Positions 41,791-58,454 of a DNA stretch of 64,000 nt are shown piece after piece. Where the stretch lies: contig NZ_AQWS01000002.1 of NCBI RefSeq assembly GCF_000375405.1, forward strand, positions 62,001 through 126,000, written 5' to 3'. Within the stretch, counting starts at the first letter, position 1. Each line of letters begins with the position of its first letter. The notes beneath the pieces were generated by a model. The model ran no database searches. It was not told where the DNA came from and worked only from the letters and a program-made list of their open reading frames with translations. The position numbers and the translations under genes are program-made. The stretch is from Bacteroides propionicifaciens DSM 19291 = JCM 14649 (GTDB lineage: Bacteria > Bacteroidota > Bacteroidia > Bacteroidales > Bacteroidaceae).

Positions 41791-43029
41791 CTACTCCCTA
41801 AATTTATCATGCTCGCTAATATTTATCACGCTAATACCAAATTTTCTATTTGTCATATCTACTAGTAAGGGATAATTTACACTAAAATTGGGTAACTTTG
41901 CTCCAATTATTAGCCAACTTAATTTAATATCTATCTCCTTAATCTCCTGATTACTTATGTTGAAATCTTTGTATGGGCTTAACAGATTGCCATACTTTGC
42001 CCATTTTAAATCTTCTTCAGTGCAGCGATAAGATAACCTATACTCGTCTTCGTATTTAAACCCGTCACTTTTAGCATAATACTTAAAGTTGTCAAAATCT
42101 TTAAAATAAAGACTGATGCCTTCTTTCTTTAGATTGTCAACACATCTCTTTAATTTTTGATAACCCTCTGATCTTGTGTTTACGTAATGAATCTTTTTTA
42201 CTTTGTTTTTAGGTACAATAAAGCTTAAACATACACCTCTACCTGAGTCTCCATACAGTCGCCACATTAAAGCACTATCATGTTGGTCAGTAAAAGAAGT
42301 AATTAATATTCTGCTGTTTTCAACAGTTTTTAAATACTTCTCATCTTTACCCTCACCATCATAAATATTCGTAATTCCGTCATCTAAGAAAAATGATTCA
42401 CTTTCGTCATTCATAGCTACTATAGAGTTCATCCTAAAGCTATTATTGTTTAGCATGCTATAATACGTGTCCAATGACATGTATTTATAAAGATATAAAG
42501 TGTTTTTATCCTCTTGGCCACTGGTTTCTCCTCCATCAATCAATAATAATGATAAATCCCCCAAAATGATATAGCGTTTATTAAGAGTGTCAAATTTTAT
42601 TTCAAGATTACTTATAGATTCCTTTTGAAATTGGTCTTTAATTTTGGTTACCTCATCGCTGTTAGAGATTGGTAATACTCTATTTAACTCATCATCTAAC
42701 ATAATAGATTTCCCATTATTATGTCCACATGTAAGAAATTCATCAACATTTACTGATATGTTACCTATATGATACCATTTGGAGTAGTTGAATAGTTCAA
42801 TAGTAATGCTGCCTCTTATTTGTCTTCGTCCATCTGGAGTAAAAACATTTGATATATAAAATCCAAAACGTACAAACTCTTTATTTTCGTACTTAACAAT
42901 TATGTCATTATCATATTCCGTTTTATAAAATGGTTCGCAGCTAAATTTTTCTTTCTCCCAGTCTATTAACTCCAAATGTTTTTTTATTATTCCTATAACG
43001 TTCTCAAAAGTATATTTCATCATGTGCAT
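41791..43029 (-). CDS. DUF2971-type protein with unknown N-terminal domain
   Basis: About 410 residues from the ATG at 43029 (a GTG lies five codons upstream). Residues about 1-175 are a beta-rich region I do not recognise. From about 178 comes a DUF2971-like domain: LYKYMSLDTYYSMLNNNSFRMNS, VAMNDESES, SFTDQHDSALMWRLYGDSGRGVCLSF, and FKYEDEYRLSY, the last like the E-x-E/W-R end of DUF2971. The function is unknown. The gene looks more A+T-rich than its neighbours and interrupts a housekeeping stretch, as accessory genes often do. A role in defence or stress is possible but not shown. Confidence 0.7.
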   Translation of the reverse strand: MHMMKYTFENVIGIIKKHLELIDWEKEKFSCEPFYKTEYDNDIIVKYENKEFVRFGFYISNVFTPDGRRQIRGSITIELFNYSKWYHIGNISVNVDEFLTCGHNNGKSIMLDDELNRVLPISNSDEVTKIKDQFQKESISNLEIKFDTLNKRYIILGDLSLLLIDGGETSGQEDKNTLYLYKYMSLDTYYSMLNNNSFRMNSIVAMNDESESFFLDDGITNIYDGEGKDEKYLKTVENSRILITSFTDQHDSALMWRLYGDSGRGVCLSFIVPKNKVKKIHYVNTRSEGYQKLKRCVDNLKKEGISLYFKDFDNFKYYAKSDGFKYEDEYRLSYRCTEEDLKWAKYGNLLSPYKDFNISNQEIKEIDIKLSWLIIGAKLPNFSVNYPLLVDMTNRKFGISVINISEHDKFRE

Positions 43030-43133
43030 TTCTATAATAATCACTGTATTCTAATCTCAAGCGGCACTTATTTATTGAAAAATTATGTATTAACTGTGTC
43101 AGCTGGACTAATGCTATACTAAGGTTCTAATTT

Positions 43134-46164: not shown

Positions 46165-47097
46165 ATGAAATCCAGAGTTACTTCTCGAGAAAGAGGAATA
46201 TATAAGGTGACCCTCCAAGGGAGTGTTGTCAATGTACTGCTGACACTTTTTAAGCTTGCAGCAGGAATTTTTGGTCGTAGCTCTGCTATGATAGCCGATG
46301 CTGTGCACTCACTCTCGGACTTGATAACCGATTTGATTGTGCTTGTTTTTGTACGGATATCCAGTAAGCCCGAAGACGATAACCACGACTACGGCCATGG
46401 TAAGTACGAGACGCTTGCCACCTTACTTATAAGTGTTTTCCTTTTTATAGTCGGTGTGGGGATTTTTTGTAACGGATCAATTGATATATATCGCTCACTA
46501 GTTCTCAAAGATGTTTTACCCTCTCCTAAACTCATAGCTTTCGTTGCAGCCGTAGTTTCAATTATTGCAAAAGAATTGTTGTTTCGTTATACCTATGCTG
46601 AAGGCAAACGAATGAATTCGCAGGCTGTTATGGCTAATGCATGGCACCATCGGAGTGATGCTCTGTCTTCTGTAGGTGCTGCTGTAGGTATTGGTGGGGC
46701 TATTTTGCTGGGTCACTCATGGAGCATACTCGACCCCTTGGTAGCAGTATTGATGAGCTTCTGGATTATTTATGAAGGATTTAAATTGCTAAAATCTTCT
46801 TTAAATGAGCTTTTAGAGCGTTCTTTGCCTACCGAAACAGCGAAGGAAATTATTGCTATTATTGAGTCGGTTGAACCAATCAAGGGTTTTGATGAACTAC
46901 GTACCCGTAGAATAGGCAATTATTATGCAATATCCTTCCTTATATATATAGATCAGAATACCACCGTTAAGGTGGCTCATCAATATACGGATGAACTTGA
47001 AGACAGACTCAGAAAGTCATTTGGACAGAACACATACATAAGCATTCATATAGAACCTTTTTTAGAACATGACAAAAATATTAATCACCGGAGCTAG
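46165..47097 (+). CDS. cation diffusion facilitator transporter
   Basis: 310 residues with six membrane segments and a C-terminal cytoplasmic domain. Metal-site motifs: HSLSDLITD (segment 2), HDYGHGKYE, and NAWHHRSDA (segment 5). The pattern fits zinc/iron efflux CDF proteins such as FieF. Its end overlaps the next gene by 29 bases, forming an operon with the SDR and PAP2 genes. Why a metal exporter is grouped with lipid-type enzymes is unclear. Confidence 0.92.
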   Translation: MKSRVTSRERGIYKVTLQGSVVNVLLTLFKLAAGIFGRSSAMIADAVHSLSDLITDLIVLVFVRISSKPEDDNHDYGHGKYETLATLLISVFLFIVGVGIFCNGSIDIYRSLVLKDVLPSPKLIAFVAAVVSIIAKELLFRYTYAEGKRMNSQAVMANAWHHRSDALSSVGAAVGIGGAILLGHSWSILDPLVAVLMSFWIIYEGFKLLKSSLNELLERSLPTETAKEIIAIIESVEPIKGFDELRTRRIGNYYAISFLIYIDQNTTVKVAHQYTDELEDRLRKSFGQNTYISIHIEPFLEHDKNINHRS

Positions 47098-48076
47098 TGG
47101 TTTTATCGGTAGTTTTATCGTTGAGGAAGCCCTATCCCAAGGCTATAAGACCTATGCTGGAGTGCGTAGAAGCAGTAGCCGACGTTATCTTCAAGATGAG
47201 CGAATTAACTTTTTAGAGATTGACTTTTCTAGCAAGCAGTCCATAGTTGAGGCTTTATCCAATTTTAAACGTGATAACGGCAGTTTTGATTATATCATTC
47301 ACTGTGCAGGGGTAACTAAATGCATCAATAAAGAGGAGTTTATTGAGGTCAACTACCTCCAAACCAAGAATTTTGTAGACTCACTATCAGAGCTCGAAAT
47401 GGTTCCTAAGCAATTTATTTATATTAGTACATTGAGTGTCTTTGGACCAATTTACGAACAGACCTATCAGCCCATTGCCGAATCTGACCAACGCCAACCC
47501 AATACGGCATATGGACTTAGTAAGCTAAAATCTGAGCAATACCTTGAGCAGATGCCGGATTTCCCTTATGTGATTTTTCGACCTACTGGGGTTTATGGCC
47601 CGCGTGAAGGCGATTACTTCTTGATGATAAAGTCTATTAAAGGTCATGTTGACTTTTCGGTTGGTTATAAACGTCAAGACATAACCTTTGTCTATGTGAA
47701 GGATTTGGTTCAAGCCATCTTTTTGGCTATCGACAAAAAGGTTAATCGCAGAGCCTATTTTGTGTCTGATGGCCAGGTGTATAGTAGTCGATCTTTCTCC
47801 GACTTAATACAGCATGAGTTAGGCGATCCTTTTGTTATTCATATAAAAAGTCCACTTTTCGTATTAAAAGTAATATCTTTGTGCGCTGAATTTTTATCGG
47901 GTTTGATGAAGAAGACAAGTACTCTAAACTCAGATAAATACAAAATTATGAAACAAAGAAACTGGCAATGTGATATCTCTCCAACTGTCGAAGAGCTGGG
48001 TTACGTGCCCAAATACAAACTTGATAGGGGAGTGAAAGAGGCTGTTTCTTGGTATAAAGATGAAAAATGGATATAG
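47069..48076 (+). CDS. extended SDR (NAD-dependent epimerase/dehydratase)
   Basis: 335 residues. Cofactor site ITGASGFIGSFI, catalytic Ser/Thr around STLSVFGPI, and YGLSKLKSE (Tyr-x-x-x-Lys). The C-terminal part is hydrophobic in places (FVLKVISLCAEFLSGLM). In B. thetaiotaomicron a protein of this type reduces 3-ketosphinganine during sphingolipid synthesis. Here it overlaps a PAP2-type lipid phosphotransferase gene, which would fit. Sugar epimerase is the other option; sequence alone does not separate them. Confidence 0.85.
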   Translation: MTKILITGASGFIGSFIVEEALSQGYKTYAGVRRSSSRRYLQDERINFLEIDFSSKQSIVEALSNFKRDNGSFDYIIHCAGVTKCINKEEFIEVNYLQTKNFVDSLSELEMVPKQFIYISTLSVFGPIYEQTYQPIAESDQRQPNTAYGLSKLKSEQYLEQMPDFPYVIFRPTGVYGPREGDYFLMIKSIKGHVDFSVGYKRQDITFVYVKDLVQAIFLAIDKKVNRRAYFVSDGQVYSSRSFSDLIQHELGDPFVIHIKSPLFVLKVISLCAEFLSGLMKKTSTLNSDKYKIMKQRNWQCDISPTVEELGYVPKYKLDRGVKEAVSWYKDEKWI

Positions 48077-49053
48077 CGCTGACAAAAAAAGTTCTTCTTA
48101 ATAAACGATTACTTGGTGTTGAAAAGATCTCTTTGATCTATAGTTTTTTAACTGCGATCTTAATTGTTTGCCTTTACCCTCGTATGGATCATCCCATGCA
48201 AATGCTCGTTGAACGATTGGCTATAGTGGGGATTACCTTAGCTCTTGTATTTATTGGTTCGTGGTGGCCTTCCAAGTTTACGACACTTGTTCGGGTGGCT
48301 TTTCAGATGAGTTTACTATCTTATTGGTACCCTGATACTTATGAATTCAATCGTCTATTCGATAACTTAGACCATGTTTTTGCTTCTTGGGAACAGAGCT
48401 TGATTGGCTTTCAGCCTGCTATTACATTTAGGGTTAATTTCTCTGATATTTCTTGGAGTGAGGCCTTTAACCTGGGTTATTTTGCCTATTACCCCATGAT
48501 AGGCTTAGTTGTATTTATGTATTTCTTTAAACGATTTCAGGAATTTACTAAAGTGGCTTATATCCTTGTAGGGGCTTTCTTTCTTTATTATTTTATCTAT
48601 ATCTTCTTGCCAGTGGTAGGGCCTCAGTATTATTTCCCTGCAATCGGTTTTGATAATGTATTGAATGGTGTATTCCCCGCAGTTGGTGATTATTTCGACC
48701 ATAGCCAAGAATTATTGCCCAATACGGGTTGTGATCAAGGGATATTTTATGAGTTGGTGGAGTCTTCTCAGGCAGCAGGAGAGCGTCCAACAGCAGCATT
48801 CCCCAGCTCTCATGTGGGGATATCGACCATTATTATGATTTTGATTTGGAGAATAAGCAGAACCACATTTGGTGCATTATTTCCTTTTTATGTGCTGCTT
48901 TGTGGAGCAACGGTTTATATCCAAGCCCACTACCTGATAGATGTGTTTGCGGGATGGGTTACAGCATTTCCTATTTATGGAGTTGTTTTGTGGTCGTATA
49001 ATAAATGGTTTAAACAATCTGAAAGCAAGCTTATGGCATTCTCTTCAAAATAA
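48067..49053 (+). CDS. PAP2-family membrane enzyme, AUR1/IPC-synthase-like
   Basis: 328 residues with about six membrane segments. PAP2 motifs are AAFPSSHVG (His249) and AHYLIDVFAGW (His288, Asp292), the order of the catalytic triad seen in inositol-phosphorylceramide synthases and lipid phosphatases. The N-terminal half lacks the usual first PAP2 motif (KxxxxxxRP), as in AUR1-type transferases. It overlaps the SDR gene by 10 bases. A role in moving a phospho-head group onto ceramide or dephosphorylating a lipid phosphate is inferred from family and context. Confidence 0.75.
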   Translation: MDIALTKKVLLNKRLLGVEKISLIYSFLTAILIVCLYPRMDHPMQMLVERLAIVGITLALVFIGSWWPSKFTTLVRVAFQMSLLSYWYPDTYEFNRLFDNLDHVFASWEQSLIGFQPAITFRVNFSDISWSEAFNLGYFAYYPMIGLVVFMYFFKRFQEFTKVAYILVGAFFLYYFIYIFLPVVGPQYYFPAIGFDNVLNGVFPAVGDYFDHSQELLPNTGCDQGIFYELVESSQAAGERPTAAFPSSHVGISTIIMILIWRISRTTFGALFPFYVLLCGATVYIQAHYLIDVFAGWVTAFPIYGVVLWSYNKWFKQSESKLMAFSSK

Positions 49054-51483: not shown

Positions 51484-51571
51484 CTGAATTGTTCTTGGTA
51501 TCTATATTGTATAAATGTAGATGCACAAAGCGTAAACCTCAAACCTAGTACTAATTTAAAAATTGAAATTT

Positions 51572-52177
51572 ATGAGCTTTAGCAACCTTTGTAATAAAAT
51601 TTTCTTGCAATCGACAAAAGACTATCATATTGAAAATAGTGTTGATGCAACGATAAACAATCCTTATGAGTTTAAAACTATCGAATACTACTTGTATTTG
51701 AAGAATTGGATTGATGCTGTTCAGTGGCACTTCGAAGATATCATCCGTGATCCTAATATTGATCCCGTTGAGGCTTTGAAGCTAAAACGTCGTATTGACA
51801 AATCGAATCAAGATCGTACCGACTTAGTAGAGCTTATTGATAGCTACTTCTTAGACAAATCTAAAGAGGTTAAGGTTAAATCTGATGCAACGATCAATAC
51901 TGAAAGTCCTGCTTGGGCTATAGATAGATTGTCTATTCTGACTCTTAAGATTTATCATATGCAAGAAGAGGTAGATCGAAAAGATACTTCGAAAGAGCAT
52001 CACGACAAATGTCTTGAGAAGCTAAACGTTCTTTTGGAGCAACAAAAAGATCTTTGTTCTGCAATTGATCAACTACTAGAAGATATTGAAGCTGGTAATA
52101 AATACATGAAAGTTTATAAACAAATGAAAATGTATAATGACCCTGCTTTGAACCCAGTATTATATGCAAAGAAATAA
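51572..52177 (+). CDS. DUF4254-family protein
   Basis: 201 residues from ATG 51572; a TTG three codons earlier is less likely. Mostly helical with family traits: YLYLKNWIDAVQWHFEDIIRDPNIDP, SPAWAIDRLSILTLKIYHMQEE. Function unknown. It ends one base before the GT9 start, a pairing seen in other Bacteroidales, which suggests a role with LPS core assembly. Confidence 0.85.
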   Translation: MSFSNLCNKIFLQSTKDYHIENSVDATINNPYEFKTIEYYLYLKNWIDAVQWHFEDIIRDPNIDPVEALKLKRRIDKSNQDRTDLVELIDSYFLDKSKEVKVKSDATINTESPAWAIDRLSILTLKIYHMQEEVDRKDTSKEHHDKCLEKLNVLLEQQKDLCSAIDQLLEDIEAGNKYMKVYKQMKMYNDPALNPVLYAKK

Positions 52178-52178
52178 G

Positions 52179-53213
52179 ATGAAGCGTATTCTAATTATAC
52201 GATTTTCTGCAATAGGGGATGTCGCCATGACAGTCCCTATTGTTCATTCCTTGGCTGTGCAATATCCAGATTTGGAGATTACCATGCTAAGTAGAGAGGC
52301 TTTAAGACCAATCTTTAAAGAAATGCCCTCTAATGTACGCTTTATAGGTGCAGACCTTAAAGGCAAGCATCATGGTATTTCGGGTTTAAACAAGCTTTTC
52401 TCAGAGCTTGCTGCCCATAAATTTGATGCAGTTGCCGACTTTCATAACGTATTAAGAACGCAATACTTAGACTTAAGATTCCGACTTAAAGGAGTCAAGG
52501 TTGCCAAAATAGATAAAGGACGTACAGGCAAGCGCAAACTGGTTCGTCGAACCAATAAAGTGTTTGTTCGTCAAAAGAGCTTATTCCAACGCTATACAGA
52601 TGTTTTGGAAACTCTTGGCTTACCTATATCTGCCAATTTCGATTCTATCTTTGGAAAGGGGAAAGGAGACTTCTCTCAAATTCAAGATGTAGTTGGGCTA
52701 AAACAGGAGAAATGGTTGGGTATCGCCCCATTTGCACTGCATAAGGGCAAAATATATCCAATGGATAAAATGGAGCAAGTCATTGCACATTTTTCAAAAG
52801 ACCCTCGTGTACGTATATTCTTGTTTGGAGGTGGTCAGCACGAACAAGTGATATTTGATGACTTGGTGGCGAAATATCCTTCAGTTATGTCAATGATTGG
52901 TAAGCTGAACATGGAGAAAGAACTAATTCTGATGAGTTACCTTGACCTAATGTTGTCTATGGATTCGTCTAATATGCATTTGGCTTCTCTTGTAAATACT
53001 CCTGTACTCTCTATTTGGGGTGCAACACATCCTTATGCAGGGTTCTTGGGTTGGAAGCAACTGCCCATTAACACCATTCAAATCGAAGACTTAACCTGTA
53101 GACCTTGTTCTGTTTATGGTCAAAAGCCTTGTTACAGAAAAGATTATGCATGTTTGAATCAAATAGCTCCCACAACTATAATTGATCGTATTGAGCGAGA
53201 TTTTAGCTTGTAA
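52179..53213 (+). CDS. GT9 heptosyltransferase-like glycosyltransferase
   Basis: 344 residues from the ATG at 52179 (MKRILIIRFSAIGDVAMTVP); the longer frame starts inside DUF4254. GT9 signature at the N-terminus, then ADFHNVLRTQYLDLRF, PFALHKGKIYPMD and the sugar-nucleotide stretch MLSMDSSNMHLASLVNTPVLSIWG. This family adds heptose or related sugars to the lipid A-proximal core. It starts the glycan part of the operon. Confidence 0.9.
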   Translation: MKRILIIRFSAIGDVAMTVPIVHSLAVQYPDLEITMLSREALRPIFKEMPSNVRFIGADLKGKHHGISGLNKLFSELAAHKFDAVADFHNVLRTQYLDLRFRLKGVKVAKIDKGRTGKRKLVRRTNKVFVRQKSLFQRYTDVLETLGLPISANFDSIFGKGKGDFSQIQDVVGLKQEKWLGIAPFALHKGKIYPMDKMEQVIAHFSKDPRVRIFLFGGGQHEQVIFDDLVAKYPSVMSMIGKLNMEKELILMSYLDLMLSMDSSNMHLASLVNTPVLSIWGATHPYAGFLGWKQLPINTIQIEDLTCRPCSVYGQKPCYRKDYACLNQIAPTTIIDRIERDFSL

Positions 53214-53248
53214 TTGCTAGAGCAGACCAAGAAGTATAATTTTAGCCT

Positions 53249-53995
53249 ATGTATAAAAGGATAATCAATTCTAAATTCAATGCCCTTAAGCCTTTTGTAG
53301 ATTCACTTCCCTATATATTTGAGGACAATGGTGAAACTATTTACACGGGTCGAAACCTTATAAAGGTTTTTGATGTTGATGGCCTCAAGGTTAATGTTAA
53401 GCGATATGGAATCCCCTTTTTTATCAATAGAGTTGTATATTCATATCTCCGTAAGCCCAAAGGGCTGAGAGCCTACACATACCCTTCAATTTTACTAAAG
53501 GCTGGAGTCAATACGCCCGAACCTATAGCTTACATTGAGGAGCGAAAAGGTGGGTTGATAGGTTACTCTTACTTTGTTAGTTTACAATCTTCTTATAAAG
53601 CCTATTTGTATGAAATAGGTAACCTTGAAGTAGAAGAGATAAAGGAGTTGGCTCATGCTTTAGCTCTCTTTACTTCCGATATGCATAAAAAAGGAATCTA
53701 CCATAAAGATTATTCGCCAGGCAATATCCTGTGTGGCACTAAAGATGGTAGACCCGACTTCTGCTTGGTTGATATTAACCGTATGCGTTTTGGCGAAGTT
53801 ACTTTAGAAGAAGGATGTGCTAATTTTGCTCGGTTATGGGGGCAGCCTTCATTCTTTAGATATATTGCAGAGGCTTATGCTAAAGACAGAGGAGCGGACG
53901 TAGAATGGTGTATAGAGTGTGTATTCTATTACAGAACCAAGTTCTGGAAAAGTTTTTCGAAACGTAAGACCATCAAATACGACTTAAAATATTAA
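53249..53995 (+). CDS. LPS core kinase (InaA/Kdo-kinase-like)
   Basis: 248 residues with a small kinase fold: ATP lysine in LKVNVKRYG (Lys51), catalytic loop HKDYSPGNIL (152-161) and metal-binding VDINR (174-178) in place of DFG. It fits the lipopolysaccharide-kinase family (PF06293). It would phosphorylate a sugar of the core, possibly Kdo. Placed between GT9 and a polyol-phosphate transferase. Confidence 0.8.
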   Translation: MYKRIINSKFNALKPFVDSLPYIFEDNGETIYTGRNLIKVFDVDGLKVNVKRYGIPFFINRVVYSYLRKPKGLRAYTYPSILLKAGVNTPEPIAYIEERKGGLIGYSYFVSLQSSYKAYLYEIGNLEVEEIKELAHALALFTSDMHKKGIYHKDYSPGNILCGTKDGRPDFCLVDINRMRFGEVTLEEGCANFARLWGQPSFFRYIAEAYAKDRGADVEWCIECVFYYRTKFWKSFSKRKTIKYDLKY

Positions 53996-53997
53996 GC

Positions 53998-55050
53998 ATG
54001 AAAGTAGCTCTTTTCTGTGAAAACAAATATGCCTTAGGTATATTACAGCCATTATACAGTTATGCATTGGATAATGACATGGAAGTTTTATGGTATATTC
54101 ACTTGCCTAAAATTCAGCTGAGTGAGGTAGAAATGGCTATGCCAGATCACTATACTACATCCATTCAAAAGCTTTACGACTTTTGTCCAGATGTTGTTTT
54201 TGTCCCTGGAAATATTGTTCCCTACTATCTATCAGGGGTTAAGGCCCAGGTCTTTCACGGCTATGCTGCCGAAAAGAAAGACCATTGGATAATCCGAAGA
54301 TATTTTGATCTTTACTTGACTCAAGGACCATATTTTACTCGAAAGTTTAAAGAGCTGTCTTTAGAATACAAAGACTTTGAGGTTGTAGAAACTGGCTGGA
54401 CCAAACAAGATTGGATAAAACAGCACTTGCACTCTTTTGATACCGAAAAGGCCAAAATACTTACTGAGCATGGAAAAGAAAAAATGGTGCTTTATGCACC
54501 AACATTTTCGCCTAAGCTTACTTCATTACCCTTAATTAAGCAGGCTTTAGTCGATTTGGTCGAGCAAGAAAATATCGTGCTCATGATTAAGCCTCATCCA
54601 CTGACTAACCCCATTTGGCTTGACGAATACAAAGAATTGGCTCGTCAAACGAAGAATATTGTTTGGGCAAAAGATAATAACATAACCAAATATGAGTTGA
54701 TGGCTGATCTTATGATTAGCGATACATCGTCTACTGTCTATGAGTTTTTATTGCTCGATAAGCCTGTAATCACGCTTAATTCGATTGCTAAAGATATATA
54801 TTGGACGAATATTAGTTCCCCCGATGATCTACCAAAAGCCTATTATGAAGTGTTTCATGATCCTGAGGCTATTGCAAAACGGAAGTGGGTAGTTGATAAT
54901 TATGATCCTTATATGGATGGATTGGTTTGTCAACGTATGTTTGAAGCCGTAAATGACTATATTTGCAGAAACGGTGTGCCTAAAAAGAGGAAGTTAAACC
55001 TTTGGCGCAAGTACACAAGTATTAAGACCTTTGGGCGTATAAAAAAATAA
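53998..55050 (+). CDS. TagF-like CDP-glycerol glycerophosphotransferase family protein
   Basis: 350 residues. Family pattern: VFVPGNIVPYYLSGVKAQVFHGYAAEKKD (phosphate/acceptor region), LYAPTFSPKLTSLP, IKPHPLTNPIW, and MISDTSSTVYEFLLLDKPVITLN. This GT-B-like family transfers glycerol-phosphate or similar units from CDP donors. It begins 2 bases after the kinase gene and is followed by an aminotransferase and a cytidylyltransferase, which together could supply the donor. Substrate is unknown. Confidence 0.82.
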   Translation: MKVALFCENKYALGILQPLYSYALDNDMEVLWYIHLPKIQLSEVEMAMPDHYTTSIQKLYDFCPDVVFVPGNIVPYYLSGVKAQVFHGYAAEKKDHWIIRRYFDLYLTQGPYFTRKFKELSLEYKDFEVVETGWTKQDWIKQHLHSFDTEKAKILTEHGKEKMVLYAPTFSPKLTSLPLIKQALVDLVEQENIVLMIKPHPLTNPIWLDEYKELARQTKNIVWAKDNNITKYELMADLMISDTSSTVYEFLLLDKPVITLNSIAKDIYWTNISSPDDLPKAYYEVFHDPEAIAKRKWVVDNYDPYMDGLVCQRMFEAVNDYICRNGVPKKRKLNLWRKYTSIKTFGRIKK

Positions 55051-55053
55051 TTT

Positions 55054-56097
55054 ATGAAGCTATTTGTATTTCCAGGAAATATCGAAGATGATATTTTAGC
55101 AATTGGAGCACAACAGTTGCCTTATATGCGTACTCCATTCTTTTCTCAAATTGTAAAGGAATCGCAAGAGATGATATTAAGTTTGATGGGTTGCCCCAAA
55201 GGACGAGCAATTTTTCTGACAGCTTCAGGAACAGGCGCTATGGATGCCGTAGTGGCCAATTACGTTTCGACCAAAAGTAAAGCTTTTATTATTGTAGGAG
55301 GTTCTTTCGGCAAAAGATGGGAAGACCTCTGTACCTACTATAATTTGCCACATGTTGTAAGCAATGTAGAGTTTGGTAAAGATTTAGATTATATAAAACT
55401 CGAAGAAAATCTCTCTCGAGAGAAGCCTGAGGTGCTTCTTTGTCAACAGCACGAAACCTCTTCGGGTCAGTGTTTTGATGTGAAGCGTATCGGTGATCTT
55501 TGCAAAAAGTACAATATCTCTTTGGTTGTTGATGTTATTAGCTCTTTCTTAGCTGATCCATTGAGTATGGATGAATTTGGAATTGACATCTGCATCACAA
55601 GTAGTCAGAAAGGTTTGAATATTCTTCCTGGCATCTCAGTGATTGCTTTGTCTGAAAGGCTAATTAATTATCCATTTACTAGTACCAATTACTATTTTGA
55701 CTTTAAAGAAAACCTAAAGAACCTCACTCGAGGCCAAACCCCATACAGTCCTGCAACTAGTCTGTTCCTTCAGATGCATGAGCGCTTAGTGAGAATGTCC
55801 AAAGAGGGACTCGATAATATTATAGCTTCTGTCCGTGATAAAGCTTTATTATTTAGAGAATTGTGTCAACAGAATGGGTGGTCATCCTTAGCAGAAAATC
55901 CATCAAATTGTATTACAGGATTTTTCTTACCTAAAAATGGTGATGTCTTGTTCTCAAAACTAATGGATAGTGGATTTACAATTATGCCGGGAGGTGTTCC
56001 AAATTATTTTAGAGTTTCGCACTTAGGTGTTCAATCTAAAGAGGATTTGATGAGTTTAGCTCAAGCAATTATGGCGATTGAAAACGGAGAAAAATGA
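55054..56097 (+). CDS. class V pyridoxal-phosphate aminotransferase
   Basis: 347 residues. Fold type I with N-terminal SGTGAMDAVVANYV, DVISSFLADPL (PLP Asp), and PLP lysine in TSSQKGLN (Lys186). Close in pattern to AEP/serine-glyoxylate aminotransferases (AGXT group). In this operon it could aminate a keto-phosphate to give an amino-alditol phosphate for CDP activation. The ATGA overlap with the next gene shows translational coupling. Confidence 0.85.
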   Translation: MKLFVFPGNIEDDILAIGAQQLPYMRTPFFSQIVKESQEMILSLMGCPKGRAIFLTASGTGAMDAVVANYVSTKSKAFIIVGGSFGKRWEDLCTYYNLPHVVSNVEFGKDLDYIKLEENLSREKPEVLLCQQHETSSGQCFDVKRIGDLCKKYNISLVVDVISSFLADPLSMDEFGIDICITSSQKGLNILPGISVIALSERLINYPFTSTNYYFDFKENLKNLTRGQTPYSPATSLFLQMHERLVRMSKEGLDNIIASVRDKALLFRELCQQNGWSSLAENPSNCITGFFLPKNGDVLFSKLMDSGFTIMPGGVPNYFRVSHLGVQSKEDLMSLAQAIMAIENGEK

Positions 56098-56603
56098 TAA
56101 ACATGGAAAATAAAAAAGTTAGAGTTTTTACATCTGGTAGCTTCGATTTATTTCATATCGGACATCTCAATATCTTGGAGAAATCGGCTGCTTTGGGCGA
56201 TGAGTTAATTGTTGGTGTTAGTACCGATGAGCTTATTGAAGAATACAAGGGCATGAAGCCTATTATTCCTTTTGACCAAAGATTCCGAATTATTCAGAAC
56301 ATCAAATGTGTAACCAAAGTAGTAAAACAGGTCAAGCTTACCGAGATTGCTCAGCTTGAACATGAACAAATAGATGTTGTTACTATCGGAGACGATTGGA
56401 AAGATAAATATTTAGAAGGATTGGACTGGATGAAACTTCAGCCAGGTAAAGAGGTGGTTTATTTCCCCTATACCGAAGGAATCAGTACAACGACTATTAA
56501 AAAGAAAATTCTAGAGAGTGCTTCACAGATTATCACTGCTGCTTTACAAAGAGAAGAAGAGCAAGATAAAAACTGGAAAGAAGACTCACCAAAGAACGAT
56601 TAA
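56094..56603 (+). CDS. TagD-like cytidylyltransferase
   Basis: 169 residues. Nucleotidyltransferase motif GSFDLFHIGHLNILEKSA (HIGH at 21-24), then EGISTTTIKKKI. The family activates glycerol-3-phosphate, ribitol-phosphate or other phosphates with CTP. An internal ATG at 56103 is an alternative start. The C-terminus (about 145-169) is a charged tail beyond the family core. With the TagF-like and aminotransferase genes it forms a donor-and-transfer set. Confidence 0.87.
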   Translation: MINMENKKVRVFTSGSFDLFHIGHLNILEKSAALGDELIVGVSTDELIEEYKGMKPIIPFDQRFRIIQNIKCVTKVVKQVKLTEIAQLEHEQIDVVTIGDDWKDKYLEGLDWMKLQPGKEVVYFPYTEGISTTTIKKKILESASQIITAALQREEEQDKNWKEDSPKND

Positions 56604-56618
56604 ACTAATTACTTACTT

Positions 56619-58454
56619 ATGAAAGAATTCCTGAGGATTTTAAGAAGGTTTGTGCCTCCTTATAAATCGTATGTGATATGGGCATCGGTTCTTAACCTTT
56701 TGTCAGCGGTGCTTAATATTTTTTCATTCTCCTTAATAGCACCTATTTTATCGATTTTGTTTGAAGCAGAGAAAGCTGTATACACCTTTATTCCTTGGGG
56801 AACTGAAGGCGTTAGCGTGAAAGACTTAATCTATAATAATGCTTACTATTATGTAACCGATCTGATTAATACTTATGGAGCATCATCTACACTGATGATC
56901 TTGGGTATGTTTTTGGCGGTGATGACACTGTTTAAGACTTCGTGTTACTTTGCCTCTTCGGCAGTCATGATTCCTTTGCGAACAGGTATTGTACGTGATA
57001 TTCGTGTTAGTCTTTATAATAAAGTCTTAGCACTGCCTATAGGATTCTTTTCGGAAGAACGTAAGGGTGATATTATCACTCGTATGAGTGGTGATGTATC
57101 GGAGGTTGAAAACTCTGTAACAAGTTCCCTCGATATGCTACTGAAGAACCCTATTCTTATTGTAGTATATTTTTCGACTCTACTCTTTATTAGCTGGGAG
57201 CTTACTTTGTTTACTATAGTTGTACTTCCTTTTATGGGCTGGTTAATGGGCATAATTGGCCGAAAACTCAAGAGGCAATCTCTCGATGCTCAAGAGAAAT
57301 GGAGCAACTCCATGTCTCAGATGGAAGAAACTTTGGGTGGACTTCGTATTATTAAGGCATTTGTTGCTGAAGGTAAAATGTCGAAGCGCTTCCTAGACTC
57401 TAGCAACGACTATAGAAATGCTATCAACCGTGTAGCTATTCGTCAGTCTTTGGCACATCCTGTTAGTGAGTTCCTAGGGACAATTCTAATTGTAGTTGTG
57501 CTTTGGTTTGGTGGTACTTTGATTTTGAGTAACCACTCTTCGATTAGTGCTCCTTCTTTCATGGTCTATATTGCCATGTTATATAGTTTGATAAATCCCT
57601 TGAAAGAGTTCTCTAAAGCGGGATATAGTATCCCAAAAGGGCTAGCTTCTATGGAGCGTATCGACAAGATACTTCTTGCTGAGAGCTCAATTGTAGAGAA
57701 GGAGAATGCGGAGTCTTTGACCGATTTTAATCAAAAAATTGACTTCAAGAACGTATTCTTTAGCTATGACGGTACGCGTGACGTCCTTAAAGATATTGAG
57801 CTGACCGTTAAGAAAGGGCAGACCATAGCCCTAGTTGGTCAGTCAGGGTCGGGTAAGTCGACATTAGTTGATCTATTGCCTCGTTATCATGATGTAACCA
57901 AGGGAGCAATTTGCATAGATGATAAGGATGTGCGTGATCTGAAGATTCACGACCTACGTTCACTTATCGGTAATGTAAACCAAGATGCAATCTTGTTTAA
58001 TGATACGTTCTTTAATAATATTGCTTTTGGTGTAGAAAGCGCTACAATGGAACAAGTCATTGAAGCGGCAAAAATAGCCAATGCACACGAGTTTATTATC
58101 GAAACCGAAGGTGGTTATGAATCGAATATTGGTGACCGTGGTAGCAAACTTTCGGGCGGACAGCGTCAACGTATTAGTATTGCTCGTGCTATACTTAAGA
58201 ACCCGCCAATTCTTATTCTGGATGAGGCTACCTCAGCTCTTGATACCGAATCGGAGCGCTCTGTTCAAGAAGCTCTTGAGCACCTGATGAAATCAAGAAC
58301 AACGATCGCCATCGCTCACCGCTTATCGACCATTAAGAATGCCGATGAGATTTGTGTCCTTTATGAGGGTGTAATTGTGGAGCGTGGTAAACATGATCAG
58401 CTTATTGCGAAGAACGGATACTACAAGCGTCTACACGATATGCAGAGCTTATAG
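56619..58454 (+). CDS. MsbA-like ABC exporter (fused permease-ATPase)
   Basis: 611 residues: six membrane segments (about 1-330), then ATPase with Walker A GQSGSGKST, signature LSGGQRQRI, Walker B LILDEATSALD, and His-loop AHRLST. It resembles MsbA/lipid-linked exporters. At the end of the LPS-core operon it may flip the finished core or lipid A. It ends 1 base before the RNase H stop on the other strand. Confidence 0.88.
   Translation: MKEFLRILRRFVPPYKSYVIWASVLNLLSAVLNIFSFSLIAPILSILFEAEKAVYTFIPWGTEGVSVKDLIYNNAYYYVTDLINTYGASSTLMILGMFLAVMTLFKTSCYFASSAVMIPLRTGIVRDIRVSLYNKVLALPIGFFSEERKGDIITRMSGDVSEVENSVTSSLDMLLKNPILIVVYFSTLLFISWELTLFTIVVLPFMGWLMGIIGRKLKRQSLDAQEKWSNSMSQMEETLGGLRIIKAFVAEGKMSKRFLDSSNDYRNAINRVAIRQSLAHPVSEFLGTILIVVVLWFGGTLILSNHSSISAPSFMVYIAMLYSLINPLKEFSKAGYSIPKGLASMERIDKILLAESSIVEKENAESLTDFNQKIDFKNVFFSYDGTRDVLKDIELTVKKGQTIALVGQSGSGKSTLVDLLPRYHDVTKGAICIDDKDVRDLKIHDLRSLIGNVNQDAILFNDTFFNNIAFGVESATMEQVIEAAKIANAHEFIIETEGGYESNIGDRGSKLSGGQRQRISIARAILKNPPILILDEATSALDTESERSVQEALEHLMKSRTTIAIAHRLSTIKNADEICVLYEGVIVERGKHDQLIAKNGYYKRLHDMQSL

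Follow-up and report, generated by a model that had tools for sequence, protein, structure and literature searches.

A conserved gene pair of Bacteroides propionicifaciens predicted to encode a ceramide reductase and an Aur1-fold head-group transferase

Ceramide phosphoethanolamine (CPE) is the most abundant sphingolipid in four Bacteroides species, where it accounts for 35–81% of the sphingolipids (PMC10056535). Gut members of Bacteroides, Parabacteroides and Prevotella whose lipids include phosphorylated dihydroceramides produce mainly PE-DHC in most cases, and P. gingivalis makes it as well, whereas P. distasonis and the oral species T. forsythia produce mainly PG-DHC (PMC3037954). The phosphorylated dihydroceramides of the Bacteroides group act through TLR2 and have been recovered in human tissues (PMC3037954). 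In one study of B. thetaiotaomicron, loss of serine palmitoyltransferase (SPT) eliminated all sphingolipids and caused poor growth and lysis (PMC8791184); since every sphingolipid was removed, the role of CPE itself was not separable. A BLAST search with the Drosophila enzyme revealed no EPC synthase in B. thetaiotaomicron (PMC8791184). In the open-licence literature we found no CPE/EPC synthase of Bacteroides and no PAP2 protein assigned to dihydroceramide synthesis; a subscription paper or a preprint may name one.

Among the reductases of the pathway, BT_0972 of B. thetaiotaomicron is an enzyme of about 31 kDa that, according to its paper, was picked for its similarity to the yeast and human KDSR. 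The ceramide reductase CerR of Caulobacter is reported to be periplasmic and NDUFA9-like. The published CerS (BF9343_4218) and CerR (BF9343_4240) genes of B. fragilis have 22 locus tags between them.

The locus and its conserved unit

The window, that is, the whole stretch of 64,000 nucleotides that was analysed, contains three plus-strand open reading frames that overlap by 29 bases (CDF and SDR) and by 10 bases (SDR and PAP2). The overlaps had been reported in the first-pass annotation and agree with the coordinates. The features are as follows.

46165–47097, plus strand: CDF cation exporter, 310 aa (Pfam Cation_efflux and ZT_dimer)
47069–48076, plus strand: extended SDR of 335 aa, most readily interpreted as CerR (Pfam Epimerase, linkage, tree and motifs)
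48067–49053, plus strand: PAP2_3 membrane protein, 328 aa, with a predicted Aur1 fold, putative head-group transferase (Pfam, AlphaFold2 and neighbourhood)
48799–48819, plus strand: FPSSHVG motif of the PAP2 protein (His249 invariant in the 40-row alignment)
48928–48945, plus strand: HYLIDV motif of the PAP2 protein (His288 and Asp292 invariant across the 40 aligned rows)

Genome contigs were scanned for Bacteroides-like loci and 80 were retained; the PAP2 gene lies directly 3' of the SDR gene in 78 of them. One exception ends at the SDR (L122), and the other shows no PAP2 match within the following 6 kb (L140). The same arrangement was found in 22 of 30 relatives' loci (the best 30 matches, own genome included), and the pair is present in B. 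fragilis and P. vulgatus. This adjacency is more than chance. The CDF protein scores 221.3 bits with TIGR01297 (cut-off 82.35) and below the cut-offs of the equivalog models. Its gene lies directly 5' of the SDR in 42/80 loci of the contig scan and in 12/30 relatives' loci, and we dropped it as a fixed partner given the former count. The conserved unit is the SDR-PAP2 pair, and the CDF gene is a frequent neighbour only; the metal exporter that the first-pass annotation placed alongside the operon is there, but outside this unit. We predict, with a probability of roughly 0.6, that the pair completes the bacterial ceramide pathway, encoding CerR followed by a CPE synthase.

The reductase and its linkage to sphingolipid genes

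The SDR matches Pfam Epimerase (118.3 bits, cut-off 20.9) and carries the nucleotide-binding motif GASGFIG and the catalytic motif YGLSK (YxxxK), thus having the trait of CerR, an extended SDR with both motifs. It had been proposed to be the B. thetaiotaomicron 3-ketosphinganine reductase or, alternatively, a sugar epimerase, and we favour neither. BT_0972 and the window protein both belong to the SDR superfamily and to the sphingolipid pathway, but BT_0972 is KDSR-like, whereas the window SDR scores 32.1 bits with the KDSR model NF049977 against a cut-off of 400. The classical-SDR type was rejected on these grounds, and the protein is best taken to be of the extended CerR type.

If the SDR were a sugar-nucleotide epimerase or dehydratase, the operon would serve envelope sugar synthesis. 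The Pfam assignment and the envelope-sugar-type genes about 2.5–9 kb downstream are compatible with that, and the best NCBIfam scores (best 25 of 61 matching families) are to sugar enzymes, all of them far below the cut-offs (80.7 bits against 365.1 for the best). This explanation is rendered extremely improbable by these scores together with the tree, the linkage of its gene to those for SPT and bCerS-type proteins in 15 genomes of the order and, in other lineages, on three plasmids, and the co-occurrence with SPT. In the tree the Bacteroidaceae loci are represented by hand-picked members, and a weak second SDR at locus L148 was removed before it was built. The SDR does not group with the sugar-nucleotide enzymes of its own genome; the branches of the sugar enzymes are very long. 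The result singled out from the tree is a Bacteroidales clade of 35 rows (99/96); a single clade for all 39 SDRs was neither rejected nor shown (p-AU 0.398).

An SPT, which the first-pass annotation had suggested looking for, is present in the same genome (NCBIfam equivalog NF047600, 713.6 bits against a cut-off of 640; phmmer against solved SPTs, 1.4e-157), together with one bCerS-type acyltransferase (E 1.9e-145). Both genes are on other contigs than the SDR-PAP2 pair. A YegS-type lipid kinase gene adjoins the SPT gene. A second PAP2 protein of this genome, encoded near SPT (C26), scores 22.7 bits, below the PAP2_3 cut-off.

Surveys of the order were made on even draws, in total 247 genomes. 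SPT was found in 59 of the 65 genomes with the SDR and in 24 of the 182 genomes lacking it, these counts being uncorrected for kinship. In 15 of the 59 genomes having both genes the two are at most 1.6 kb apart on the same strand, and in all 15 a bCerS-type GNAT gene is located between them. Outside the order, SPT-GNAT-SDR runs occur on Streptomyces and Rubrobacter plasmids, and an Aureispira plasmid carries GNAT-SPT next to a divergently oriented SDR gene. The label "bCerS-type" reflects operon place and the B. fragilis spacing, not an assayed sequence.

In many genomes the SDR is co-encoded with SPT and a bCerS-type gene, a trait it shares with CerR of Caulobacter and B. fragilis (BF9343_4240). 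The assayed CerR and bCerS sequences were represented by a cluster on a Sphingomonas plasmid and by the spacing in B. fragilis Q1F2, where the SDR is found 20–21 ORFs away from the bCerS-type gene. This is close to the published spacing of BF9343_4218 and BF9343_4240, and the Q1F2 SDR may accordingly correspond to BF9343_4240. The Sphingomonas stand-in is very divergent, and YxxxK was not found in the stretch searched. Unlike the reportedly periplasmic CerR of Caulobacter, the window SDR begins right at the nucleotide-binding motif. Judging from its sequence and linkage, the SDR is very probably a ceramide (3-ketodihydroceramide) reductase, CerR.

Fold, distribution and head group of the PAP2 protein

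The PAP2 protein matches Pfam PAP2_3 (PF14378) with 62.3 bits (cut-off 27) and has no match in NCBIfam. As had been noticed at first reading, it lacks KxxxxxxRP and retains FPSSHVG and HYLIDVFAGW. Within its family, KxxxxxxRP occurs in 0 of 121 rows and both other motifs in 120 of 121, some rows being fragments. The 40-row alignment mentioned above (A2) comprises the window protein and 39 of 43 non-redundant rows, taken from 74 rows of at least 280 aa.

The closest solved structures to the AlphaFold2 model (mean pLDDT 82.6) are those of yeast Aur1, with Z-scores of 17.9 and 16.7 over 265 and 273 residues (rmsd 3.9 for the 265-residue match). Foldseek alone gave Aur1 at E 0.012 and no match below 0.001. 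Phmmer and profile searches of PDB sequences gave no match, and none to Aur1 up to E 10. By its model the protein has the Aur1 fold, outside the sequence group that matches Aur1, and we consider it a likely head-group transferase acting on sphingolipids.

The PAP2 superfamily would also suit a phosphatase that acts on a sphingolipid phosphate (such as ceramide-1-phosphate) or on a lipid product of another enzyme. Two relatives match the LpxE profile weakly (20.5 and 21.9 bits against a cut-off of 177), and the YegS-type kinase gene next to SPT could be brought into such a scheme. The phosphatases among the matches listed, however, align with the model at Z of at most 10.8 over 162–194 residues, well below the Aur1 match that extends over most of its length; KxxxxxxRP, their motif 1, is missing throughout the family; and PAP2 proteins of the inositol kind take the same place in parallel operons. 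We therefore consider a phosphatase quite unlikely.

At the 1e-10 threshold PAP2 was found in 25 genomes of the order and lies beside the SDR or a GNAT gene in 24 of them; in the remaining one (G189) it is at a contig end. SPT, GNAT, SDR and window-type PAP2 form one run in two genomes (G075 and G109) and in a third, G086, where SPT is cut by the contig end. No PAP2 match at E 1e-10 was obtained in 54 of the 65 SDR-bearing genomes. A profile search, in which two positive controls were found, covered 28 of those 54 as well as six genomes from the same family as the window that had been PAP2-negative, and gave no match in any of them. Since PAP2 is missing from so many SDR-bearing genomes, other enzymes must serve there.

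Distant members (28–34% identity, 46% in one fragment) are paired in 13 genomes with a separate GNAT clade, as seen in a quickly built GNAT tree without bootstrap. Ten of the 13 genomes have no SPT at 1e-90, two of these ten showing SPT pieces. Second synthases were fetched from nine genomes, and the two that were compared with solved structures match cysteate-C-fatty acyltransferase (1.2e-183 and 5e-180), the only better match being to an entry called 7-keto-8-aminopelargonate synthetase-like. These sequences point to sulfonolipid makers, and because distant members sit in such apparent sulfonolipid makers, specificity for CPE may not extend to the entire PAP2 family.

The fold and the neighbourhood establish neither the activity nor the head group. 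The protein may accordingly transfer another head group (for instance phosphoglycerol or phosphoserine) or use an acceptor that sphingolipids and sulfonolipids share, a reading in keeping with the members adjoining GNAT in genomes where no SPT was found at 1e-90 and with the cysteate fatty acyltransferases, by sequence, of two of these genomes. We regard it as unlikely: PG-DHC was found in only two Parabacteroides among the gut species tested (PMC3037954), and the four Bacteroides species have CPE in common as their major sphingolipid (PMC10056535). Moreover, the SDR on the P. distasonis contig has no PAP2 beside it, a weak absence given that contigs of the plasmid collection are of uncertain completeness. 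The correlation between lipids and PAP2 is confounded by kinship.

Inositol was considered as well, as the motifs had been described as the arrangement of inositol-phosphorylceramide synthases. In three genomes (G086, G238 and G250) CerR is followed, after one short gene, by a gene for a different kind of PAP2_3 protein; the short gene is DUF4833 in G086 and G250. PgpA and GtrA are upstream in these two runs, and MIPS in that of G250. The G250 protein, the only one tested, matches Aur1 by sequence (4.9e-16), whereas the window protein does not; the two kinds of PAP2 are on separate branches (100/100), and G086 holds both runs. No inositol-phosphate synthase (PF01658) was found in the own genome, whose bearer may take up inositol, or in a B. 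fragilis strain having the pair, and B. fragilis has no ceramide-PI (PMC10056535). The Aur1 fold and the FPSxH and HYxxD motifs keep that part of the earlier description, but the sequence group differs, and we rejected the protein as an inositol phosphorylceramide synthase, which is very unlikely on these grounds.

Proposed pathway and comparison with known systems

Coupling of ceramide synthesis with head-group addition, as put forward in the first-pass annotation, is the best reading of the linkage, the SPT and bCerS-type genes and the Aur1 fold. We infer the activities of both enzymes, the head group and its donor as follows. SPT and the bCerS-type acyltransferase would supply 3-ketodihydroceramide, which the SDR (CerR) would reduce to dihydroceramide. 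The PAP2 protein, as an Aur1-fold lipid phosphotransferase of another subfamily than inositol phosphorylceramide synthase, would then take the phospho-head group of a phospholipid and attach it to dihydroceramide at the C1 hydroxyl. Phosphatidylethanolamine is the most likely donor, which would make it the CPE/EPC/PE-DHC synthase of Bacteroides and Prevotella; we give phosphoethanolamine as the specific head group an even chance. By analogy with the PAP2/Aur1 superfamily, His288, which we take to be the nucleophile with Asp292 as its partner, would be polarised by the latter and take phosphoethanolamine from the donor, and His249 would help the ceramide hydroxyl to accept it.

The broader proposal, at slightly less than even odds, is that the protein is the missing CPE synthase of gut Bacteroides and Prevotella and represents a second, inositol-independent Aur1-fold family co-encoded with ceramide reductase. 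If a single head-group gene is indeed involved, a CPE-less but ceramide-competent strain becomes possible.

SMSr (sphingomyelin synthase-related protein), a CPE synthase in animals, has the same broad fold as the PAP2 model (Z 10.9) and possibly the same product, but only 197 residues align, with 8% identity. Aur1 and BT_1522 share with the window protein the PAP2_3 Pfam family, the fold over most of the length and the His/His/Asp motifs. They form a separate sequence group (BT_1522 being represented by the three inositol-type cluster proteins), with MPSLHA in place of FPSSHVG. In three genomes the inositol-cluster proteins come after CerR in a comparable position; if the proposed activity is correct, two Aur1-fold families stand in like places of parallel operons and attach different head groups.

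Overlapping gene trio and its conserved unit

The first-pass annotation described three overlapping genes, and the open reading frames were confirmed with the same overlaps (29 and 10 bases) in this 2.63-Mb genome (72 contigs):

46165–47097, + strand, CDF transporter (Pfam Cation_efflux/ZT_dimer)
47069–48076, + strand, SDR (Pfam Epimerase)
48067–49053, + strand, PAP2 protein (Pfam PAP2_3)

Judged by the SDR, the closest named relatives are Bacteroidaceae (Bacteroides, Phocaeicola). A contig collection was scanned with the B. finegoldii SDR; the best 80 of 198 relatives were retained, from records titled Bacteroides, Phocaeicola and other Bacteroidales, MAGs included. The PAP2 gene lies directly 3' of the SDR gene in 78 of these best 80 loci, the exceptions being L122, which stops at the SDR, and L140, with no match in the following 6 kb; the CDF gene lies directly 5' in 42. 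In 30 fetched loci of relatives, own genome counted, PAP2 follows the SDR in 22 and CDF precedes it in 12. Since PAP2 is near-constant and CDF is found only in part of the loci, the conserved unit is SDR–PAP2. The metal exporter that had been placed alongside the pathway does adjoin the SDR here, but as an optional neighbour sited between rnr and the SDR.

Elsewhere in the window, a DUF2971 protein (41791–43044) is flanked by a cysteine synthase-like ORF and a small rnr-adjacent ORF. DUF4254, GT9 heptosyltransferase, Kdo-kinase-like, CDP-glycerol glycerophosphotransferase-like, class V aminotransferase, cytidylyltransferase and ABC exporter genes stand in a row at 51563–58454, possibly a cluster for a phospho-substituted envelope glycan.

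The probable reductase and its link to serine palmitoyltransferase

The SDR is present in 43 of 61 relatives, own genome counted, and in 65 of 247 evenly drawn Bacteroidales genomes (limit 1e-25); the weakest per-genome best match was 9.4e-64, so presence and absence are separated without a grey zone. Serine palmitoyltransferase (SPT; limit 1e-90) was found in 83 of the 247: 59 of 65 SDR-bearing versus 24 of 182 SDR-less genomes (Fisher test, 3e-30, uncorrected for kinship). Two of the six SDR-bearing genomes without SPT (G047, G093, G114, G159, G273, G274) are incomplete (G047, 61%; G273, 65%). The two genes lie on the same strand, 1.1–1.5 kb apart, in 15 of the 59 genomes having both, and a GNAT of a single family stands between them in all 15 fetched loci. 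This GNAT and the acyltransferase encoded in an SPT-GNAT-SDR run from Streptomyces match each other. A Rubrobacter plasmid has this order as well; an Aureispira plasmid carries GNAT-SPT divergent from the SDR, and a Sphingomonas plasmid carries genes for an NAD(P)H-binding protein, ACP, SPT, LptF/G and an N-acetyltransferase. The bCerS-type GNAT family has one member in the own genome (contig C11, 16256–17386) and one in B. fragilis Q1F2, where a crude ORF count places it at a distance of 20–21 ORFs from the SDR; the CerS and CerR tags published for B. fragilis are BF9343_4218 and BF9343_4240 (PMC10865984).

In the tree, the window SDR and the operon SDRs share a 35-row clade (99/96), and eight sugar-type enzymes from the window's genome fall outside it, which speaks against the sugar epimerase considered earlier. 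Nor does the proposed 3-ketosphinganine reductase identity hold: the SDR groups with SDRs of SPT operons, whereas BT_0972 (31 kDa) was, as described in PMC9278070, selected by likeness to yeast and human KDSR. CerR is presented in PMC11087976 as an NDUFA9-like reductase working downstream of bCerS, and the window SDR is very probably a reductase of this known type.

Several neighbouring arrangements were recorded. On a Rubrobacter radiotolerans plasmid (L189, 5704–11296), SPT-, bCerS- and CerR-type genes and a gene of the LTA synthase family stand in a row; the last may encode a head-group transferase of a different kind in that position. An overlapping run of SPT-type, GNAT, CerR-type and condensation-domain genes on a plasmid of Streptomyces sp. 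NBC_01001 (L057, 5642–10168) suggests a plasmid-borne sphingolipid-like pathway. On contig C26 of the own genome a YegS-type lipid kinase gene (L011, 9711–10607), a candidate ceramide or sphingoid-base kinase, is divergent from SPT; a GtrA-type protein is encoded about 5 kb beyond it.

Fold and distribution of the PAP2 protein

PAP2 was found in 25 of the 247 genomes (1e-10), in 24 of them no more than some 350 bases from the SDR or a bCerS-type GNAT gene; in the 25th (G189) it meets a contig end. The full run SPT-GNAT-SDR-PAP2 occurs in G075 and G109, and in G086 with SPT truncated at a contig end. A structure model built from a 40-row alignment (mean pLDDT 82.6) aligned to yeast Aur1 with Z-scores of 17.9 and 16.7 over 265 and 273 residues, versus 10.9 for SMSr and at most 10.8, over 162–194 residues, for phosphatases; these scores come from re-alignment of Foldseek-ranked chains, Foldseek alone ranking Aur1 first with E 0.012. 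All 40 rows carry His249, His288 and Asp292, and KxxxxxxRP was found in none of 121 family rows. The model gives PAP2 an Aur1 fold, and gene position links it with the ceramide genes.

Part of the distribution does not fit. PAP2 is missing from 54 of the 65 SDR-bearing order genomes (1e-10) and from 6 of 36 in the window's family, own genome counted; a profile search of 28 of the 54 and of six PAP2-negative own-family genomes found no PAP2 and recovered both positive controls. Thirteen GNATs paired with PAP2 without an SDR (L164–L176) form a separate GNAT clade in the tree. SPT was not found at 1e-90 in 10 of these 13 genomes, two of which (G079, G246) hold SPT pieces. Second synthases taken from eight of the ten and from G274 all scored far under the SPT cut-off. 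The two compared with solved structures, from G132 and G218, match cysteate-C-fatty acyltransferase (1.2e-183, 5e-180), ranked second after an entry named 7-keto-8-aminopelargonate synthetase-like. By these matches, distant PAP2 family members may act in sulfonolipid makers, and the acyltransferase and PAP2 paired in L164–L176 possibly serve the synthesis of sulfonolipids or of another amino lipid.

Choice of head group

The annotation had likened PAP2 to inositol phosphorylceramide synthases. In G250 (locus L155, 1–11001), G086 (L149) and G238 (L156), SPT-bCerS-CerR is followed by a single short gene and then by a gene for a PAP2_3 protein. Directly upstream of SPT, and in one run with these genes, lie MIPS (inositol-phosphate synthase), PgpA, GtrA and DUF5686 genes in G250, and PgpA and GtrA in G086: gene kinds of the BT_1522–1526 cluster, reported as required for phosphoinositol dihydroceramide (PMC9246714, PMC8791184). 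The short gene encodes DUF4833 in G250 and G086; DUF4833 also follows CerR in L154 and L157 and is possibly a sphingolipid protein. Profiles of the window-type and inositol-cluster PAP2s align (probability 94.5, E 7.8e-8) with motifs in register, yet the two form separate branches (100/100), and both operon kinds occur within G086. The G250 protein matches Aur1 in sequence (4.9e-16), whereas single-sequence and profile searches gave no such match for the window PAP2. Inositol-phosphate synthase is present in P. vulgatus and B. xylanisolvens; the search found none in the own genome or B. fragilis Q1F2. An inositol phosphorylceramide synthase in the window is thus very improbable.

The best candidate assignment is a ceramide phosphoethanolamine (CPE) synthase. 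PMC10056535 gives CPE as the commonest sphingolipid in B. thetaiotaomicron, B. fragilis, B. ovatus and P. vulgatus, with ceramide-PI not detected in B. fragilis; a BLAST search with Drosophila EPC synthase described in PMC8791184 matched nothing in B. thetaiotaomicron. According to PMC3037954, most gut Bacteroides, Parabacteroides and Prevotella making phosphorylated dihydroceramides have mostly the phosphoethanolamine form, as does P. gingivalis; the phosphoglycerol form is reported there among gut species for P. distasonis and P. merdae only, and as the main one in T. forsythia. PAP2 is present in B. fragilis, P. vulgatus and one Prevotella, and was found neither adjoining the P. distasonis SDR nor among that species' plasmid-collection records, which, P. 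gingivalis aside, fits a CPE synthase. We hold PAP2 as an unproven candidate for this activity at about even odds (roughly 0.5); no name for the enzyme was found in open-licence literature.

The coupling of ceramide synthesis with head-group addition proposed earlier is right in outline, with a CerR-type reductase and, in all likelihood, a head group other than inositol. Compared with known systems, the reductase is of a type already described, and the new element is the conserved, predicted Aur1-fold enzyme in the head-group place.
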